Shown: positions 43,217 through 50,980 of the stretch, in pieces | How positions within the stretch are numbered: position 1 is the first letter of the stretch | How the letters are laid out: every line of letters begins with the position of its first letter | Assembly (NCBI GenBank): GCA_039028935.1 | Contig: JBCCHD010000001.1 | Coordinates: 199,181-263,180, forward strand | Reading direction: 5' to 3' | Source of the DNA: Pseudomonadota bacterium | GTDB lineage: Bacteria > Pseudomonadota > Gammaproteobacteria > Steroidobacterales > SZUA-146 | Length of the DNA stretch: 64,000 nt | Position numbers and translations under genes: made by a program | The notes under the pieces: model-generated | Told to the model about the DNA's origin: nothing | What the model saw: only the letters and a program-made list of their open reading frames with translations | Databases searched by the model: none

Positions 43217-43352
43217 GTGCAGGTATCATGTGATCCGCATACTAAACGTGGACGGCTGCTCAGAGCGCGTCGACGCATCCGATACCGTCTACTTGGAACG
43301 CCACGTTCAACGGATGGCCTTTGCCAACCAATTTTCGCCTGGGATAGACAAC

Positions 43353-43655
43353 ATGCTTGAATCCGCAACACCGGCTACTGAAGAGCTGGATCCGGCCGTG
43401 AGGGCCTTGCTTCCTAATTACATTCGACGTCGAGAATCGGACGTTGAGATGATGGCCGTGTTGCTGGGTCGGCGAGACTACAAAGAAGTCGGCAAACTGG
43501 CGCATAATATGCGAGGCTCCGGCACGGCCTACGGCTTTCCGCGCATCACCGAACTGGGTGGCCAAATTGAACACGCTGCGATGACAAGCGATACCGAGAC
43601 ATTGGAACGTCTGGCGGGCGAGCTGGGTGAATTTGTAGCGACAATGCGTCCCTGA
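43353..43655 (+). CDS. Hpt (histidine phosphotransfer) domain protein
   Basis: 100 residues from the ATG at 43353; the frame is open to 43230, but that start would lie upstream of the predicted transcription start. A single four-helix Hpt domain: the phosphorylatable His (residue 51 of the short form) is in KLAHNMRGSGTAYGF, followed by ITELGGQIEHAA. No kinase domain or membrane segment is present. Stand-alone Hpt proteins carry phosphate from the receiver of a hybrid kinase to another receiver; the cluster provides both (hybrid kinase at 48.8 kb, receivers at 43.7 and 45.0 kb). First gene of the cluster, 53 bases before the next. The exact start is uncertain (ATG 43314 is also possible). Confidence 0.85.
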   Translation: MLESATPATEELDPAVRALLPNYIRRRESDVEMMAVLLGRRDYKEVGKLAHNMRGSGTAYGFPRITELGGQIEHAAMTSDTETLERLAGELGEFVATMRP

Positions 43656-43708
43656 CTCGGTTGGGGCGCGAGGCATTCTCGCATGACGCTCCACCGACCA
43701 ACTCATCA

Positions 43709-44956
43709 ATGAACAATGCCGGCATGCTTCGGGTGCTGGTGCTGGACGACGATGCCGCTTTTTCGGCGTCGGTCGAGCAGCGTCTCAGCCAGCTGTGGCC
43801 CGAGCTCTCCTTAGTAGCGCGTAAGTCGACACATTACCGCGACACCTTGTCGCACGATGTGCAACAAGCAAACATTGTGTTTCTGGATCACGAGTTCGAC
43901 CAACGTTCGGGCCTAACGCTGTTGCGTGAACTGCGTGCTGAACGGCGGGCACCGGCCATTATTTTCGTCACCCATAATAGCGATGAACGACTCGCCGTGG
44001 CGGCCATTAAATACGGCGCCGACGACTATCTGCCAAAAGCGACGAGTAGCGCGGAACGTCTCGTGACCACGGTGAAAGAGTGCCTGCGGGCGACGCGCGT
44101 GGTGGCGTCACGTCGACCATCCGGCGCTGCGCGCACACAGCCGGTGACCGGCGTGTTGGTCAAGGGCTATCGATTGATCGATAAAATTGCCATGGGCATG
44201 GGGTCGGTTGTGTACCTGGCGTACAGTGAGTCACGTCGTGAGGACGTCGTGCTCAAAGTGCTGGACGGAGCGTTTGAGTTAGCCGATCAGGACGAAACAT
44301 TCGAGCGTTTTCTCATCGAGATTCAGTCCGCTGCGGAGGTGACACATCCCAATGTGATCCGAATTCACGATGTGGGGGTGGCCGACCACCGCTTATTTAT
44401 TGCCATGGAGTACATCCGGGGTGGAAGTTTGCGTCAGCGCATCGCGCGCGACGGCGCACTCCGTCCGCGCGACGCGCTCGACCTCGCGCTCAACATTGGT
44501 GACGCGCTGGGCGTCATTCACGCGCAGGGCATTCTCCATCGTGACCTAAAGCCGGGCAACATTTTGTTTCGCGACGACGGAACGCCGTGCCTGATCGACT
44601 TCGGTCTTGCCAAGCATGTGCAGCTTGATCAGGAAATCACGCTGCCGGGGCGAATCTACGGTACCCCTTATTACATGAGTCCCGAACAGGGATTGGGCGA
44701 AGAAATCGATGCGCGCAGCGATTTTTACAGTCTCGGAGTGGTGTTATTTGAGGCGCTGACCGGTCGTAAGCCGTTTATGGCCGGCACACCCGTGGCCATG
44801 CTCTATAAGCATCGCTTTGCACCGATTCCCGAAATCAACGACAAAAACAAACAATATCAGCCACTTATCCATTCTCTGATGGCCAAGGATCCCGCCGAAC
44901 GACCCACCTCGGTCGAGGATTTATTGGCGGTACTAAATCACTATAAAAGTCTGTAA
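43709..44956 (+). CDS. Response regulator receiver / Ser-Thr kinase fusion
   Basis: 415 residues from the ATG at 43709 (43724 also possible). Residues about 6-125 are a receiver with all key residues: Asp13-15, phosphoacceptor Asp60 (IVFLDHEF), Thr88 and Lys110. Residues about 142-410 are a complete Hanks kinase: MGMGSVVYLAY loop, Lys173 (VVLKVL), HRD 267-269, DFG 287-289 and YYMSPEQ. No membrane segment. The fusion implies that phosphorelay input switches a Ser/Thr kinase directly. The upstream Hpt protein is the obvious phosphate donor. Kinase substrates could be the neighbouring coiled-coil or OmpA-like proteins, but nothing in the sequence shows it. Confidence 0.9.
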   Translation: MNNAGMLRVLVLDDDAAFSASVEQRLSQLWPELSLVARKSTHYRDTLSHDVQQANIVFLDHEFDQRSGLTLLRELRAERRAPAIIFVTHNSDERLAVAAIKYGADDYLPKATSSAERLVTTVKECLRATRVVASRRPSGAARTQPVTGVLVKGYRLIDKIAMGMGSVVYLAYSESRREDVVLKVLDGAFELADQDETFERFLIEIQSAAEVTHPNVIRIHDVGVADHRLFIAMEYIRGGSLRQRIARDGALRPRDALDLALNIGDALGVIHAQGILHRDLKPGNILFRDDGTPCLIDFGLAKHVQLDQEITLPGRIYGTPYYMSPEQGLGEEIDARSDFYSLGVVLFEALTGRKPFMAGTPVAMLYKHRFAPIPEINDKNKQYQPLIHSLMAKDPAERPTSVEDLLAVLNHYKSL

Positions 44957-45007: not shown

Positions 45008-45736
45008 TTGACTAACACTTCACAACGCACGCGGCTCCGTATTGCACTGCTCGAGGACGACCAGGATCAGGCAGAGTTGGTCAACGCCTGGCTCCAGGCG
45101 GCCGGGCACAGCGTGAACCATTTTTCCTCAAGCCGGGTATTTCTAAGGGAAGTGCTTAGAGATAGCTATGATTTGTTGGTGCTCGATTGGATCGTGCCCG
45201 AGATGGACGGCATAGAGGTGATGCGGCGTGTGCGGGAAAGTGCACGCCACTACACGCCGGTGCTGTTTGTGACGGCAAAAGACACCGAAGACGACGTGGT
45301 CGCTGCGCTCGGGGCGGGCGCCGACGATTACATGGCCAAGCCACTCCGGCAGCGTGAATTTGCCGCGCGTGTGCTGGCGGTCATCCGCCGCGGGCGGGAT
45401 GGCGCGGGCAAGGATGAGCTACCGGATGCGGCGCCGTTTGTGATCGACCTCAAACGCAAGCAAATCGAGCTCAATGACGATGTCATTGAATTAACGCACC
45501 GCGAATTTGATCTCGCTGTGTTTATGTTTCGAAATGCCGGTCGGGTCGTGTCGCGCAGCCACATCCTTGAGAGTATCTGGGGCATGCACGGCGCGGAACT
45601 CAATACCCGCACGGTGGATACGCACATTAGCCGGTTGCGCAAGAAACTGGGCATCAAAGCGGAAAACGGCTGGAAGCTATCCGCCATCTATCAACACGGC
45701 TATCGACTGGAGCGTACCGATACGCTCGAGGCCTGA
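45008..45736 (+). CDS. OmpR/PhoB-family response regulator
   Basis: 242 residues from a TTG at 45008 with AGGGTGG upstream. Receiver (about 10-125): acidic pocket Glu16-Asp17-Asp18, phosphoacceptor Asp60 (LLVLDWIVPEMDG), Thr89 and Lys111. C-terminal winged helix (about 140-238): LTHREFDLAVFMFRNAGRVV, then the recognition-helix region TRTVDTHISRLRKKLG and the wing YQHGYRLE. It should bind DNA as a phosphorylated dimer. No dedicated orthodox kinase is adjacent; the hybrid kinase 3 kb downstream plus the Hpt protein could phosphorylate it. Targets unknown; the inverted repeat just upstream is a candidate autoregulatory site. Confidence 0.93.
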   Translation: MTNTSQRTRLRIALLEDDQDQAELVNAWLQAAGHSVNHFSSSRVFLREVLRDSYDLLVLDWIVPEMDGIEVMRRVRESARHYTPVLFVTAKDTEDDVVAALGAGADDYMAKPLRQREFAARVLAVIRRGRDGAGKDELPDAAPFVIDLKRKQIELNDDVIELTHREFDLAVFMFRNAGRVVSRSHILESIWGMHGAELNTRTVDTHISRLRKKLGIKAENGWKLSAIYQHGYRLERTDTLEA

Positions 45737-45816
45737 GGACACTCGGCGACAGTCCATTCCAACGAGCCTGATGGGTGTGATGCTTGTCAGGCGATCATTC
45801 TGCAACGGGTAGTGTG

Positions 45817-46395
45817 ATGAGCAAAGACACCAAAACCAATTCACCGTCTCAATCGAGTGCCGCTGAGCACGACGAGAGTCAGGAAAATGTCGACAAGATA
45901 CGCGACATACTATTCGGCGGCCAAATGCGCGACTATGAATCGCGCTTTCGTCAGCTCGATGGCCACATATCCAAAGAGATCAATCGCATCAGCACGGACA
46001 TCAATTCGCGGCTTGATCAGCTCGACCATTACATCAAAAACGAATTCACCATTCTGACGGAAAAGCTTAATGGCGAAGTAAAAGAGCGGGCCAGTGCGGC
46101 CGACGAGCTTGCAGGCAGTATGGCCGACATGCGCAAAGTACTTGAAAACCGCATCGCGGACGTTGATGAGGTGCACGGTGCCGCAGCACAGGAAATGCGT
46201 GGTCGTATGCATGAACAGGCGACCGAGCTATTGGAAGCGATTCGCAATAATCAGGCCGCCATCGAGAGCAGTCTACGTGATGAGTCGCGTAAACTCGGCG
46301 ATGAAAAAGTAGCCAGGACCGATCTTGCCAGTTTGTTTACCGAGGTGGCGATGCGTCTTCAACGCGATTTCGATTTACCCGACGAGAAAGGATGA
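45817..46395 (+). CDS. Coiled-coil protein with N-terminal KIxxILFG motif
   Basis: 192 residues from the ATG at 45817. I cannot assign a named family. A polar N terminus is followed by KIRDILFGG (about residues 27-35), then a long heptad-rich helical stretch (about 38-165, for example RFRQLDGHISKEINRISTDI), and a conserved-looking end ARTDLASLFTEVAMRLQRDF. There is no signal peptide or membrane segment, so it is cytoplasmic. The KIxxILFG element recurs at the start of the next protein (KIKNILFG), suggesting a shared binding partner. It lies 80 bases after the regulator and 18 before the OmpA-like gene. A filament, tether or effector role is possible but unproven. Confidence 0.75.
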   Translation: MSKDTKTNSPSQSSAAEHDESQENVDKIRDILFGGQMRDYESRFRQLDGHISKEINRISTDINSRLDQLDHYIKNEFTILTEKLNGEVKERASAADELAGSMADMRKVLENRIADVDEVHGAAAQEMRGRMHEQATELLEAIRNNQAAIESSLRDESRKLGDEKVARTDLASLFTEVAMRLQRDFDLPDEKG

Positions 46396-46413: not shown

Positions 46414-48270
46414 TTGAACGATCTTGAAAAAATAAAGAACATCCTTTTCGGTAACGAAAAGAAAGCCCTGGATTCCTTGGTGCGGCGTCTAGAGCGACCG
46501 GAAGCACGAACCGCGGATGTCGCCGACGTTCTCCCCGATGCTGTCACCCGCAGTTACAACACAGACGAGCGCCTGGGTAAAGCACTCAGCCAGCCACTCG
46601 AGTCCACGCTCAGCGAAGCCATTCGACGCGAACCCAAAAAATTTGCCGATGCTTTGTTTCCCGTGATGGGGCCGGCGATTCGTAAGGCCATCAGCGAAGC
46701 GATTAAATCCACACTGCAAACCATCAACACGGCCATCGAAGAGAAATCGATTGGCAACCGAATTCGCGCGGCACGTGCCGGCGTGCCGCTTGCGGAGTAC
46801 GTGTTTCTCAAGAGCGTGGTCTACCGCGTTGATGAAGTGTATCTGGTCGACCCCGAGTCCGGTCGCCTCATTCATTACCTGCACCATCGGGACGTTGACA
46901 GCAAAGACGAAGACGCGGTGTCGGCCATGCTCACCGCTATACAGGACTTTGTACGCGATTCGTTTAGCAAAGGCACCGGCGGCGGGTTGCAGCGTGTGGC
47001 GATTGATGAGTACACGGTATTGGTCTCGCAGGGGCCTCATGCCATGTTGGCGTGTGTTGTGCGCGGCGGGCCACCGCAGTCGCTGTTGACCAATATCGAC
47101 GCCGCCAACGAGCGCGTGCATCTGCGTCACGCGGAGGCGCTTGCCGAGTTCGACGGACAGGCCGGCAGTATCGCCGGGTTGGATGCGGAGCTTGAAACAC
47201 TGTTGCAGGTGCAAAAACAGGAGACGGCGGCCACTCGTCCGCTGTTCGGCTGGAAGTCGAAACTGCTGGCGCTCGGGGTGTTGCTGTTGGTGGGCTATTT
47301 GATAGCAAACGCCTGGACGGTGAATCAAAAAATGCGCGCGCTGGCCGATCTTGTGCGCGCCACTCCCGGTATTCTCACGACCGAGTTGGCGCGTGACGGT
47401 CATCGCGCCATTGCGATTGAAGGGCTTCGTGATCCGCTCGCGCCACAGCCGCTTGATTTGGCGCGCCAAGTGGGCATCGATCCCAAACACTTTACGGCGA
47501 GCTTTCTGCCCTTTCAATCGTTGGAAGCGGCGATAATCGAGCAGCGTGCGCAGTCCACACTCGAGCCGCCGGCGGGCGTGTCATTAACGTTTGAAGACGG
47601 CACACTGTCCGCGAACGGCAGTGCGGCGGCGGGATTTCGCGAGCGGTTTATCAATCTTGCGCCATTGCTCGGCGGCGTGACGGACGTCGACGCGACGCAG
47701 TTGCGTTTAGATGATGCCTCACTACTCAAGTCGCTTGAGCAGGCGCTGGAACCGCCGCCGACGGTCGATCTGAGCGTGACGCAGGCGGTCGCCGTCGTGT
47801 CGGGTTCGGCGCCGCAGGCGTGGCACGATAAACTCCAAACCGTCAAAACGCTGGTGCCTGGCATCACTGATGTAAATCGAAAAGCGCTCAAACTCGAAGA
47901 GCGGGTCACGTTAGCCGGCCTGGTGGCATCGCTGCATAATCGAGCGGTGTTTTTTTCCTCGGGTGATCAGCTGGTGCCTAATCAAGAGGCGCAGATCAAT
48001 CGCACCGCGACACGACTGCGCTCGTATGAGGAACTGGCGATCGGTCTGGGACTCAAACCTGTTGTGCGAGTCATTGGCGAAGTCGATGGGAGTGGCGATC
48101 CGCGTGTCAACGAGTCGTTGATGGCGCGGCGCGCGAGCGTCTATCGAGAGGCGCTCATCGCGTATGGCGTGAATGCTGCGTTGCTTCGTATTGAGGCCTC
48201 TGCCGTACCTCAGTCCGAAGTGGTTGATCCTGCCAAGCGCCGGGCCATCATCAAAATGTCATCACAATAA
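46414..48270 (+). CDS. Inner-membrane protein with cytoplasmic sensor-like domain and periplasmic OmpA-like domain
   Basis: 618 residues from a TTG at 46414. No signal peptide. Cytoplasmic part (1-283): KIKNILFG at 6-13, a helical segment with KKFADALFPVMGPAIRKAIS, then about 130-222 an alpha/beta region (VYRVDEVYLVDPESGRLIHY) that looks roadblock/longin-like to me. One membrane segment at about 284-301. Periplasmic part: two BON-like repeats (about 385-450, 460-515, each ending GVTDVD/GITDVN) and a C-terminal OmpA/MotB domain (about 515-618) with the Asp and Arg (VIGEVDGSGD, ARRASVYREAL) used to bind peptidoglycan. It would connect the cytoplasmic module to the cell wall. The GTPase gene follows 18 bases later. 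Confidence 0.82.
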   Translation: MNDLEKIKNILFGNEKKALDSLVRRLERPEARTADVADVLPDAVTRSYNTDERLGKALSQPLESTLSEAIRREPKKFADALFPVMGPAIRKAISEAIKSTLQTINTAIEEKSIGNRIRAARAGVPLAEYVFLKSVVYRVDEVYLVDPESGRLIHYLHHRDVDSKDEDAVSAMLTAIQDFVRDSFSKGTGGGLQRVAIDEYTVLVSQGPHAMLACVVRGGPPQSLLTNIDAANERVHLRHAEALAEFDGQAGSIAGLDAELETLLQVQKQETAATRPLFGWKSKLLALGVLLLVGYLIANAWTVNQKMRALADLVRATPGILTTELARDGHRAIAIEGLRDPLAPQPLDLARQVGIDPKHFTASFLPFQSLEAAIIEQRAQSTLEPPAGVSLTFEDGTLSANGSAAAGFRERFINLAPLLGGVTDVDATQLRLDDASLLKSLEQALEPPPTVDLSVTQAVAVVSGSAPQAWHDKLQTVKTLVPGITDVNRKALKLEERVTLAGLVASLHNRAVFFSSGDQLVPNQEAQINRTATRLRSYEELAIGLGLKPVVRVIGEVDGSGDPRVNESLMARRASVYREALIAYGVNAALLRIEASAVPQSEVVDPAKRRAIIKMSSQ

Positions 48271-48288: not shown

Positions 48289-48795
48289 TTGGCTGAGCTC
48301 ACAAAAAAAGTATGTATCATCGGCGATTTCGCTGTTGGTAAAACCAGTTCCGTCGCGCGTTGTGTCAACAACGTGTTTTCCGAAAAATACCTCACGACTG
48401 TGGGCGTTAAGATCGATACGAAAGAACTGTCACTGAGCAATCGAAGCGAACCGGTTAAGCTTGTGATTTGGGATATTGCCGGCACCGATCGTTTTTCGGC
48501 GGTTGAGTTTTCATACCTGCGCGGATCAAACGGCTTCATTTTGGTGATTGACGGCACGCGACAACACACGCTGGATGTGGCGAAAAAACTGCGTGCTGAG
48601 GCGTTTGAACGCTACGGTGAGCAACCGTGCGTGACGTTGATCAATAAGTCGGACCTGGAGGACGAGTGGCAAATCAGTGACGAGATGGTCGCTGAACTCG
48701 ACGAACAAGGTTTCATGCCGTTTGTGACGAGCGCTAAAACCGGCGCGAATGTCGAGGCGGCGTTCACGCGCTTGGCCGAGTTGGTTGTGGACTGA
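48289..48795 (+). CDS. Rab/Ras-like small GTPase
   Basis: 168 residues from a TTG at 48289 with AGGGG upstream. A complete small G domain: P-loop GDFAVGKTS (12-20), switch I YLTTVGVKID with Thr37, G3 WDIAGTDRF (61-69), G4 NKSD (119-122), G5 TSAK (147-150). Switch I and WD.AG..RF are more Rab-like than MglA-like. The residue equivalent to catalytic Gln61 of Ras is Thr66, so intrinsic hydrolysis may be slow and dependent on a partner. There is no C-terminal cysteine for lipidation; membrane contact would need a partner such as the preceding OmpA-like protein. It is 18 bases after that gene and 2 bases before the hybrid kinase, so tightly co-translated. Function unknown. Confidence 0.92.
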   Translation: MAELTKKVCIIGDFAVGKTSSVARCVNNVFSEKYLTTVGVKIDTKELSLSNRSEPVKLVIWDIAGTDRFSAVEFSYLRGSNGFILVIDGTRQHTLDVAKKLRAEAFERYGEQPCVTLINKSDLEDEWQISDEMVAELDEQGFMPFVTSAKTGANVEAAFTRLAELVVD

Positions 48796-48797
48796 TC

Positions 48798-50351
48798 GTG
48801 TCGCTACCGTCCGCTGTTTCTCGTTACTTATTTCGTCTCGATCGAATTCAACGTCAGGCGCTGTGCCTCATGGTCGATGACCGCTATCGCGTTCATGAGG
48901 CGTGGGGAGATTGGCAAGGAATGGGTGTGTCAACGACACTCGATACCGACGCACGCGAGCTCGTTCCCGCACTGCATGGATTGCCGCTCGATGAGGTGGC
49001 CGTGCTTGAGTTTGTCGGGTTGCCCGGTGCAGGGACCTTCGATTTGCATGTGTTTACCGAGGGTAGCGACCGTTTTGTGTTGTTGTTGCCCTGCGATGCC
49101 GCCGAGCGACGCACCGCTGACATGCAGCAGGTGGCCAATGAAGTGCGCTTGCTCAACGAGCGACAAACTCGTTTGCTTAAAGAGCTTGAGGAGGCCCGTG
49201 CGGACCTCGAGGAAAAGAAACGCCAAGCTGATCATGCCAGTGCCATTAAATCACGGTTTATTGCGAGCATGTCACACGAGTTTCGTACCCCGCTGACATC
49301 GGTTATTGGCTATACCGAACTATTGCTGTCGGACCCAGGGACAGACGACATGAGTATGTCGCACGCCAGCGCCATACGACGATCGGCACACCATTTGTTG
49401 TCGATGGTCGACAACATTCTCGACCAAGCTCGGATCGAAGAGGGTAATGTCGCGATTCGACTGGCGGCAATGAATGTACGTCAGGTGACGGACGACATCA
49501 CGGCGATGCTCGCACCGCTTGCCGCAGAGAAGTTTTTGGGTTTTGCCGCGTTTGTGGCGCCCGATGTGCCCAAATGGGTGTATACGGACGAAGTTCGCGT
49601 GCGGCAAATATTGGTAAACCTCGTGGGCAACGCGATCAAATTCACCGACACGGGTTCGATTCGGCTCGAGATCACGTGGCAATCCGATCGTCTGACTTGT
49701 GTGGTTATCGATACCGGTCCCGGCATCGAACCCGATCAGCAGGCACTGATCTTCAACGCGTTTCATCGGGTGAATGGCCAAGACACAAAGCGCGGTACAG
49801 GACTTGGGCTGAACATCACGGCGCGTTTGGTTGAGTTGCTCAAAGGCACCGTTGCACTCGCATCGCAGCCAGGGCACGGCAGCACGTTTACCGTGGAGCT
49901 ACTGGCGCCCATTTCAGAACCTGAGGCGTTGACGGCTGACCCCAGTGTCAGTGCACAAGGGGGCAATGCTCGGGTGATGGTCGTGGAGGACGATCCTGAT
50001 TTGGTGGAGCTACTGAGTTTGTTTTTGGCGCGCGGTGGCTACGACGTAGTGCTTGCGCATGATGGCCAGCAGGCGATCGACGTGGCGTTGAGTGAACAGC
50101 CTGATTTGGTGCTGATGGACGTCAATATGCCGGTCATGGATGGCTTGTCAGCCGCGAAGGCACTGCGAAGCGAAGGCTATCAAAAGCCGGTGATCGCCTT
50201 GACCGCAAGTTTGAGTGTCAATGATCGCGATCAAGCCTTCGACTATGGGTGCGATGGCTATTTGGTCAAACCAATTAGCATGCCCGAGCTGCTGTCATCG
50301 GTTGAGCGATACCTCAACGAAGCGGCTCAGAGCGCCGAGGCGATACGATGA
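48798..50351 (+). CDS. Soluble hybrid histidine kinase
   Basis: 517 residues from GTG 48798. No membrane segment. An uncharacterised N-terminal region (1-105, possibly PAS-like) and a coiled coil (about 108-148) lead into HisKA with His160 in SMSHEFRTPLTSVIGY. HATPase_c has the N box (NLVGNAIKFT), DTGPGIEPDQ and GTGLGLNITARL. The C-terminal receiver has Glu397-Asp398-Asp399, phosphoacceptor Asp441 (LVLMDVNMPVMDG) and the YLVKP lysine. His160 to Asp441 to the Hpt protein at 43.4 kb to one of the two other receivers gives a complete phosphorelay; these pairings are inferred from proximity. The last four bases overlap miaE (ATGA). Confidence 0.93.
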   Translation: MSLPSAVSRYLFRLDRIQRQALCLMVDDRYRVHEAWGDWQGMGVSTTLDTDARELVPALHGLPLDEVAVLEFVGLPGAGTFDLHVFTEGSDRFVLLLPCDAAERRTADMQQVANEVRLLNERQTRLLKELEEARADLEEKKRQADHASAIKSRFIASMSHEFRTPLTSVIGYTELLLSDPGTDDMSMSHASAIRRSAHHLLSMVDNILDQARIEEGNVAIRLAAMNVRQVTDDITAMLAPLAAEKFLGFAAFVAPDVPKWVYTDEVRVRQILVNLVGNAIKFTDTGSIRLEITWQSDRLTCVVIDTGPGIEPDQQALIFNAFHRVNGQDTKRGTGLGLNITARLVELLKGTVALASQPGHGSTFTVELLAPISEPEALTADPSVSAQGGNARVMVVEDDPDLVELLSLFLARGGYDVVLAHDGQQAIDVALSEQPDLVLMDVNMPVMDGLSAAKALRSEGYQKPVIALTASLSVNDRDQAFDYGCDGYLVKPISMPELLSSVERYLNEAAQSAEAIR

Positions 50352-50980
50352 GCGCCCGACCGTTGCGGCAGGACAGCGGGACCGAGGTCAACGCCTTTTT
50401 GGCAGTGCCGACGTCCGATGAATGGGTGGCGTGGGCGCTTGAAAACGAAGCGGCATTGCTTTGGGATCATGGCAATTGTGAGAAGAAGGCCGCCTCAACG
50501 GCGCTGCAACTGCTTTATCGCTACCCGCAAAATGACGCGTTGGTTTATCGCATGTCGCGATTAGCGCGGGAAGAACTGCGTCATTTTGAACAGGTGCAAA
50601 AGCTCATCAAGCAGCGTGGCCACGAGTTTGTGCTGGTGCCAGCGGCTAAGTACGCGGCCCGACTGCTCAAAGCCGTGCGAACGCATGAACCGCAGCGACT
50701 CATCGATCAGCTCATTATTGGCGCCTTTATTGAGGCGCGCAGCTGCGAGCGCTTTGCGCGGGTGGCACCGAACCTCGACGCGCCGCTCAAAAAGTTCTAC
50801 CTGGGCTTGATGGAGTCGGAAGCGCGACATTTTCGCGAGTATCTCACGCTCGCCGAGCCGCTTTGCCAAACTGACGAACTCGATGCACGCATTGCGTTTT
50901 TTCGTGCGCTAGAAGCCGATGTTATTTCAGAGCCGGACGACGTGTTTGCGTTTCACAGTGGTCCACCACGCAACGAATAG
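50348..50980 (+). CDS. miaE: tRNA 2-methylthio-N6-isopentenyladenosine(37) hydroxylase
   Basis: 210 residues. Non-heme di-iron monooxygenase that hydroxylates ms2i6A37 to ms2io6A37 using O2. The ferritin-like four-helix fold is shown by repeated metal motifs: HGNCEKKAASTALQLLYRY, REELRHFEQV (ExxH), FIEARSCERF and SEARHFREY (ExxH). It overlaps the hybrid kinase by 4 bases (ATGA), so expression is tied to the signalling cluster. miaA/miaB are not in the window. The start at 50348 is supported by the overlap. Confidence 0.94.
   Translation: MSARPLRQDSGTEVNAFLAVPTSDEWVAWALENEAALLWDHGNCEKKAASTALQLLYRYPQNDALVYRMSRLAREELRHFEQVQKLIKQRGHEFVLVPAAKYAARLLKAVRTHEPQRLIDQLIIGAFIEARSCERFARVAPNLDAPLKKFYLGLMESEARHFREYLTLAEPLCQTDELDARIAFFRALEADVISEPDDVFAFHSGPPRNE

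Follow-up and report, generated by a model that had tools for sequence, protein, structure and literature searches.

The window, a 64,000-nucleotide stretch of genomic DNA, carries on its forward strand an operon-like run of genes that includes a small GTPase gene (48289-48795), which begins at a TTG start codon and encodes a protein of 168 amino acids. Upstream of it lie, in order, the genes for a 203-residue cytoplasmic protein whose only Pfam matches are coiled-coil-like (45784-46395) and for a 618-residue transmembrane protein with an OmpA-like domain (46414-48270). Downstream lies the gene for an output protein, a 517-residue hybrid histidine kinase with HisKA, HATPase_c and receiver (Response_reg) domains (48798-50351). 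Further upstream on the same strand are genes encoding an Hpt phosphotransfer protein (43230-43655) and an OmpR-family response regulator (45008-45736), both frequent members of the cluster in related genomes. A receiver-Ser/Thr kinase fusion (43661-44956) is encoded between these two. Only the closest relatives have it in their cluster, and most Woeseiaceae loci showed no such gene. A MiaE-type tRNA hydroxylase gene (50348-50980) overlaps the last 4 bases of the histidine kinase gene and is the next gene in several relatives too. The coiled-coil protein, a conserved neighbour of the GTPase, and the N-terminus of the OmpA-like partner (46414-46470) have an IRDILFG-type motif in common (hhalign P 1.1e-3), perhaps because they share a docking helix or because a segment was duplicated.

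Residues 7-166 of the GTPase match the Pfam Ras family (1.8e-31), and the protein consists of a single G domain with motifs G1-G5, its length falling within the 150-240 amino acids of the Ras superfamily. G1 reads GDFAVGKTS, switch I YLTTVGVKID, G3 WDIAGTDRF, G4 NKSD, and G5 SAK. The closest PDB match is a Rab from Thorarchaeota (7ezb, 3.3e-25), with eukaryotic Rabs next. An earlier note on this DNA had described the switches as Rab-like and the catalytic Gln as replaced by Thr. Both descriptions hold: the open reading frame has WDIAGT where Rabs have WDTAGQ and places Thr66 (codon 48484-48486) at the position of Gln61. Motifs G1, G2, G4, and G5 are all present, and the GTPase is therefore intact except for this Gln. 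The note was also right that a lipidation cysteine is missing: the only Cys residues are at positions 9, 25, and 114, and the C-terminus (AELVVD) contains none.

Relatives of the GTPase were gathered from 26 contig loci, nearly all of them from Gammaproteobacteria, and from genomes of the same class, giving 44 distinct sequences. None has Gln at the Gln61 position, which is instead occupied by Thr (16 sequences), Glu (8), Ser (7), Asn (5), Ala (4), Arg (2), Lys (1), or His (1). T66 is therefore neither a chance substitution nor a sequencing error, and what had been presented as an oddity of a single protein is a family-wide rule of 'not Gln', in which Thr itself is nothing special. A Gln aligned elsewhere in the active site would have counted against the earlier note's reading, but no conserved Gln column was found elsewhere in the GTPase, the most frequent one being present in 11 of the 44 relatives. 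The residue equivalent to Gly12 of Ras, F14, is also unlike its Ras counterpart and is Phe in 39 of the 44 sequences. The idea of an invariant P-loop Phe is weakened by distant members, which have Tyr, Ser, Gln, or Ala at this position.

The Rup family of small GTPases and its Group 1 were defined by Wuichet and Sogaard-Andersen in 2014 (PMC4316618). Group 1 Rups lack the Gln of G3 and are encoded together with a predicted coiled-coil protein, with a protein whose domain of unknown function commonly precedes a membrane helix and an OmpA domain, and with an output protein, either a histidine kinase or a GGDEF/EAL protein, whose N-terminal region contains an invariant Gln (PMC4316618). The window contains the same set: a GTPase whose G3 has no Gln, coiled-coil and domain-TM-OmpA neighbours, and an output protein with an N-terminal Gln. 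Because the neighbours and the missing Gln fit the published definition, the GTPase can be assigned on sequence grounds, with near certainty, to Group 1 Rup. The missing Gln is an already described trait of this group, of which the window holds a further member. The earlier note's suggestion that the protein may rely on a partner for catalysis is in keeping with the proposal made in 2014 for the whole of Group 1 (PMC4316618).

The earlier note had also called for a phylogeny with MglA and Rab proteins. In a tree comprising 45 Rup rows, MglA, and Rabs, built without the 71 published Group 1 Rup sequences, the GTPase nests among the bacterial Rups, outside both MglA and the Rabs. The split between Rup and MglA is supported at 100/100, while that between Rup and Rab is weaker (77/48), and a single, very long Roc branch adjoins it. 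Sequence motifs separate the families in the same way: MglA-family proteins have a G3 of TVPGQ or GTPGQ rather than WDIAGT, and eukaryotic Rabs have the G3 Gln and a C-terminal prenylation Cys in place of T66 and a Cys-free C-terminus. Weaker Ras-like matches in other genomes (G100, G155, G199, G214, and G310) were set aside as different, mostly longer Rab-like proteins, one of them with an intact WDIAGQ, from which the Rup partners are absent. Such Rab-like proteins of other genomes of the class, found without Rup neighbours, span about 200-340 amino acids (L136-L140), and one genome (G125) contains several larger Roc-like GTPases (frames of about 590-800 amino acids) besides its Rup.

The OmpA-like partner contains one hydrophobic stretch, at about residues 284-303 (KD peak 2.0 at residue 285), and its C-terminus gives a YiaD-type OmpA match (3.8e-5). 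D558 and R573 are invariant among 15 sequences, and their 15-residue spacing is that of the peptidoglycan-binding Asp/Arg pair of OmpA. The charges flanking the transmembrane helix give no orientation signal. Because OmpA-like domains are periplasmic, the C-terminal domain is predicted to lie in the periplasm and the N-terminal region in the cytoplasm. This N-terminal cytoplasmic part has 32 invariant columns across 21 sequences. It had been singled out in the earlier note as a possible partner of the GTPase, which proved a good lead, as residues 126-245 (46789-47148) are predicted to form a roadblock/longin domain. In one family (L080 7809-10466, L085 4085-7009, and L097 6799-9678) the OmpA-longin protein is longer, at 885-974 amino acids, and an insertion divides its N-terminal match into two parts.

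No Pfam family matched the longin region of the partner, and PDB profile searches with this region and with the PAS region of the output protein (see below) returned insignificant matches only. No protein with a Pfam match to Robl_LC7 (the MglB type) was found anywhere in the source genome, the predicted longin-like domain being one that escapes Pfam. In an AlphaFold2 model, residues 126-245 adopt the order H-EE-H-EEE-H, which is that of the roadblock/longin fold (beta-beta-alpha-beta-beta-beta-alpha). Model confidence is modest (mean pLDDT 66.6, pTM 0.47), rising to about 80 over residues 141-160 and 201-260, which cover the last helix and portions of the sheet. In a Foldseek search of the PDB with this model, proteins of the roadblock/longin fold dominated the 50 best matches, 24 of which had E <= 0.001. 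The proteins of this fold include TRAPP subunits (the best match, 8.1e-5), Mon1-Ccz1, Sec22b, Ragulator, Asgard and Streptomyces roadblock proteins, MglB, and adaptor sigma and COPI zeta chains. Also among the matches listed is a RagA/RagC structure (6s6a), the C-terminal domains of which are roadblock-like as well. The search discriminates between folds, since the same search with the N-terminus of the output protein gave PAS domains. Alignment of the longin region to 33 Robl_LC7 roadblock sequences with hhalign gave a weak match (P 8.6e-4, HH probability 24%) over the same segment, GLLI...D.DAVSAM..AI. No column-shuffled version out of 200 reached this score, and control profiles of the GTPase, the PAS region, and the coiled coil all scored below the longin region. 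Topology, fold search, and profile comparison agree, the last of them weakly, and residues 126-245 of the OmpA-like partner very probably have the roadblock/longin fold, as judged from the model. Among the later papers searched, we found none that gives another account of this domain.

The genes for Rup and for this longin-OmpA protein are closely linked. Among 275 genomes of the class, with Rup scored at a threshold of E <= 3.6e-28, the longin-OmpA gene is present in all 23 genomes with a Rup and in 24 genomes in all. The exception (G261, locus L097) has the coiled-coil and longin-OmpA genes and no detectable Rup in its genome, owing either to gene loss or to an assembly gap. Rup adjoins the longin-OmpA gene in 18 of 20 fetched loci, and, among the first 26 loci, in all 23 whose contig extends that far. 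One genome (G358) has a divided operon, in which Rup and its PAS-kinase lie side by side on a separate contig.

The N-terminus of the output protein is predicted to comprise a PAS domain (residues 1-99; 48798-49094) and a signalling helix (residues 100-149; 49095-49244). A Pfam scan of the PAS region gave nothing usable. The AlphaFold2 model of the first 150 residues shows a PAS domain that leads into a long helix (mean pLDDT 91), and Foldseek matched it to the PAS domains of phytochromes and FlrB (best 6.9e-4). A match of this region to MglB in the PDB profile search (E about 0.6) was dropped, as the model shows a PAS domain. Within the helix, Q111 (codon 49128-49130) is present in 35 of 38 output proteins and E115 in 33 of 38. 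Apart from the start Met, Q111 is the sole nearly invariant residue of the PAS-helix region in these proteins, and it is probably the counterpart of the Gln for which a trans-acting role was suggested in 2014. The catalytic parts of the output proteins vary between systems (a hybrid histidine kinase here, a histidine kinase alone, or an HD-GYP protein) while the PAS-helix region and Q111 stay, as would be expected if this region reads the GTPase. In the modelled helix, Q111, E115, and L118 lie on one face (i, i+4, i+7), and Q111 and E115 may simply be coiled-coil core residues. We regard catalysis in trans by Q111 as possible, though less likely than not.

Roadblock/longin dimers are established platforms for small GTPases, acting as GEFs and sometimes as GAPs (PMC10933270), and MglB is both GAP and GEF for MglA (PMC11016934). 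The longin-OmpA protein is probably a direct regulator of Rup. Co-occurrence and adjacency of the two genes count in favour of the mechanism set out next, whereas the modest confidence of the longin model and the Rup-less genome G261 count against it. With slightly more reserve, we propose that the Group 1 Rup operon encodes a transmembrane G-protein relay between the envelope and two-component signalling, for which we infer the following binding partners and roles in exchange and hydrolysis. The OmpA-like partner would hold peptidoglycan through its periplasmic domain and present the roadblock/longin domain to the cytoplasm, where this domain would bind Rup and set its nucleotide state according to the state of the envelope, acting as MglB does on MglA or as TRAPP or Mon1-Ccz1 do on Rabs. 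Rup-GTP would then bind the PAS/signalling-helix N-terminus of the hybrid histidine kinase and alter its kinase activity, and the kinase would feed the Hpt protein and the response regulators encoded upstream. As Rup has no catalytic Gln, GTP hydrolysis in this mechanism would depend on partners, through Q111 of the signalling helix in trans or else through the longin platform, which would order other residues. The fuller reading, in which a peptidoglycan-bound longin protein controls a Gln-less Rup that drives interchangeable outputs through a PAS-helix region which may also supply the Gln, has in our judgement about an even chance of being right.

A simpler account of hydrolysis, possible though not the one we favour, is that the longin platform alone activates Rup in the manner of MglB, using residues of Rup itself, so that Q111 is structural and the output protein a mere effector. 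MglB does arrange the active-site loops of MglA (PMC11016934), and the trans-acting Gln was suggested in 2014 on the basis of conservation only (PMC4316618). The helical face that Q111 shares with E115 and L118 also fits a structural role. However, there is no conserved Gln inside Rup for such a platform to position, and Q111 is nearly invariant and is kept ahead of unrelated outputs. Loss of the Gln impairs hydrolysis in Ras-family proteins, and the Phe found in most Rups at the position of Ras Gly12 can be expected to obstruct a classical Arg finger, so both features would suit a Rup that hydrolyses GTP very slowly and is for the most part a GTP-bound on-switch, set by synthesis or exchange only. 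We consider this unlikely, as the other nucleotide-binding motifs and the two candidate regulators are strictly conserved, which suggests a nucleotide cycle. Conservation of the partners likewise makes a cycle driven by them likelier than the earlier note's alternative of a protein that just remains in the GTP state. Finally, the Rabs that head the PDB matches could point to a eukaryotic Rab gene that was acquired recently and is unrelated to its neighbours. This is very improbable given that the GTPase nests with other bacterial Rups, which stand apart from the Rabs (albeit weakly) and well apart from MglA, and that gene order is conserved.

The analysis adds two things to what was known: the membrane partner is likely to carry a roadblock/longin domain, and the region that bears the Gln is predicted to be a PAS domain with a signalling helix. 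Rup probably does have a platform of the MglB/TRAPP kind, one tied to peptidoglycan. If so, the roadblock/longin domain of a conserved membrane partner supplies the missing regulator of Rup, Rup systems are no exception to the pairing of GTPase and roadblock protein, and that pairing is perhaps general among prokaryotic Ras-like proteins. The hypothesis of a Gln acting in trans would become testable with three soluble fragments. The fold predicted for the partner is the one that regulates Rab switches in human cells, and would give Rup signalling a testable wiring diagram.

The system in the window resembles the published four-gene systems of Group 1 Rup (PMC4316618) in its missing Gln, coiled-coil protein, domain-TM-OmpA protein, and Gln-bearing output. 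It adds to them in that the unknown domain of the OmpA partner is predicted to be roadblock/longin and the output N-terminus to be a PAS domain with a signalling helix, and in that HD-GYP outputs occur beside the histidine kinase and GGDEF/EAL types named then. MglA/MglB and the actinobacterial conservon (Cvn/Mfp) likewise place a small GTPase beside a roadblock-fold partner (here predicted), and the conservon also includes two-component parts. MglA differs from the window Rup in having a G3 of xxPGQ with its Gln, a soluble Robl_LC7 partner, and a position in a separate clade. TBC-domain RabGAPs use a dual-finger mechanism in which Gln is supplied in trans. They would share with Rup the principle of a partner-supplied Gln hypothesised here, with no sequence or fold relation seen between them and the Rup partners. 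Eukaryotic Rabs differ in having the Gln, a prenylated Cys, and no peptidoglycan-bound transmembrane longin protein, but together with the longin GEFs TRAPP and Mon1-Ccz1 they resemble the window Rup both in their switch sequences and in having a partner of the longin fold, which is here predicted.
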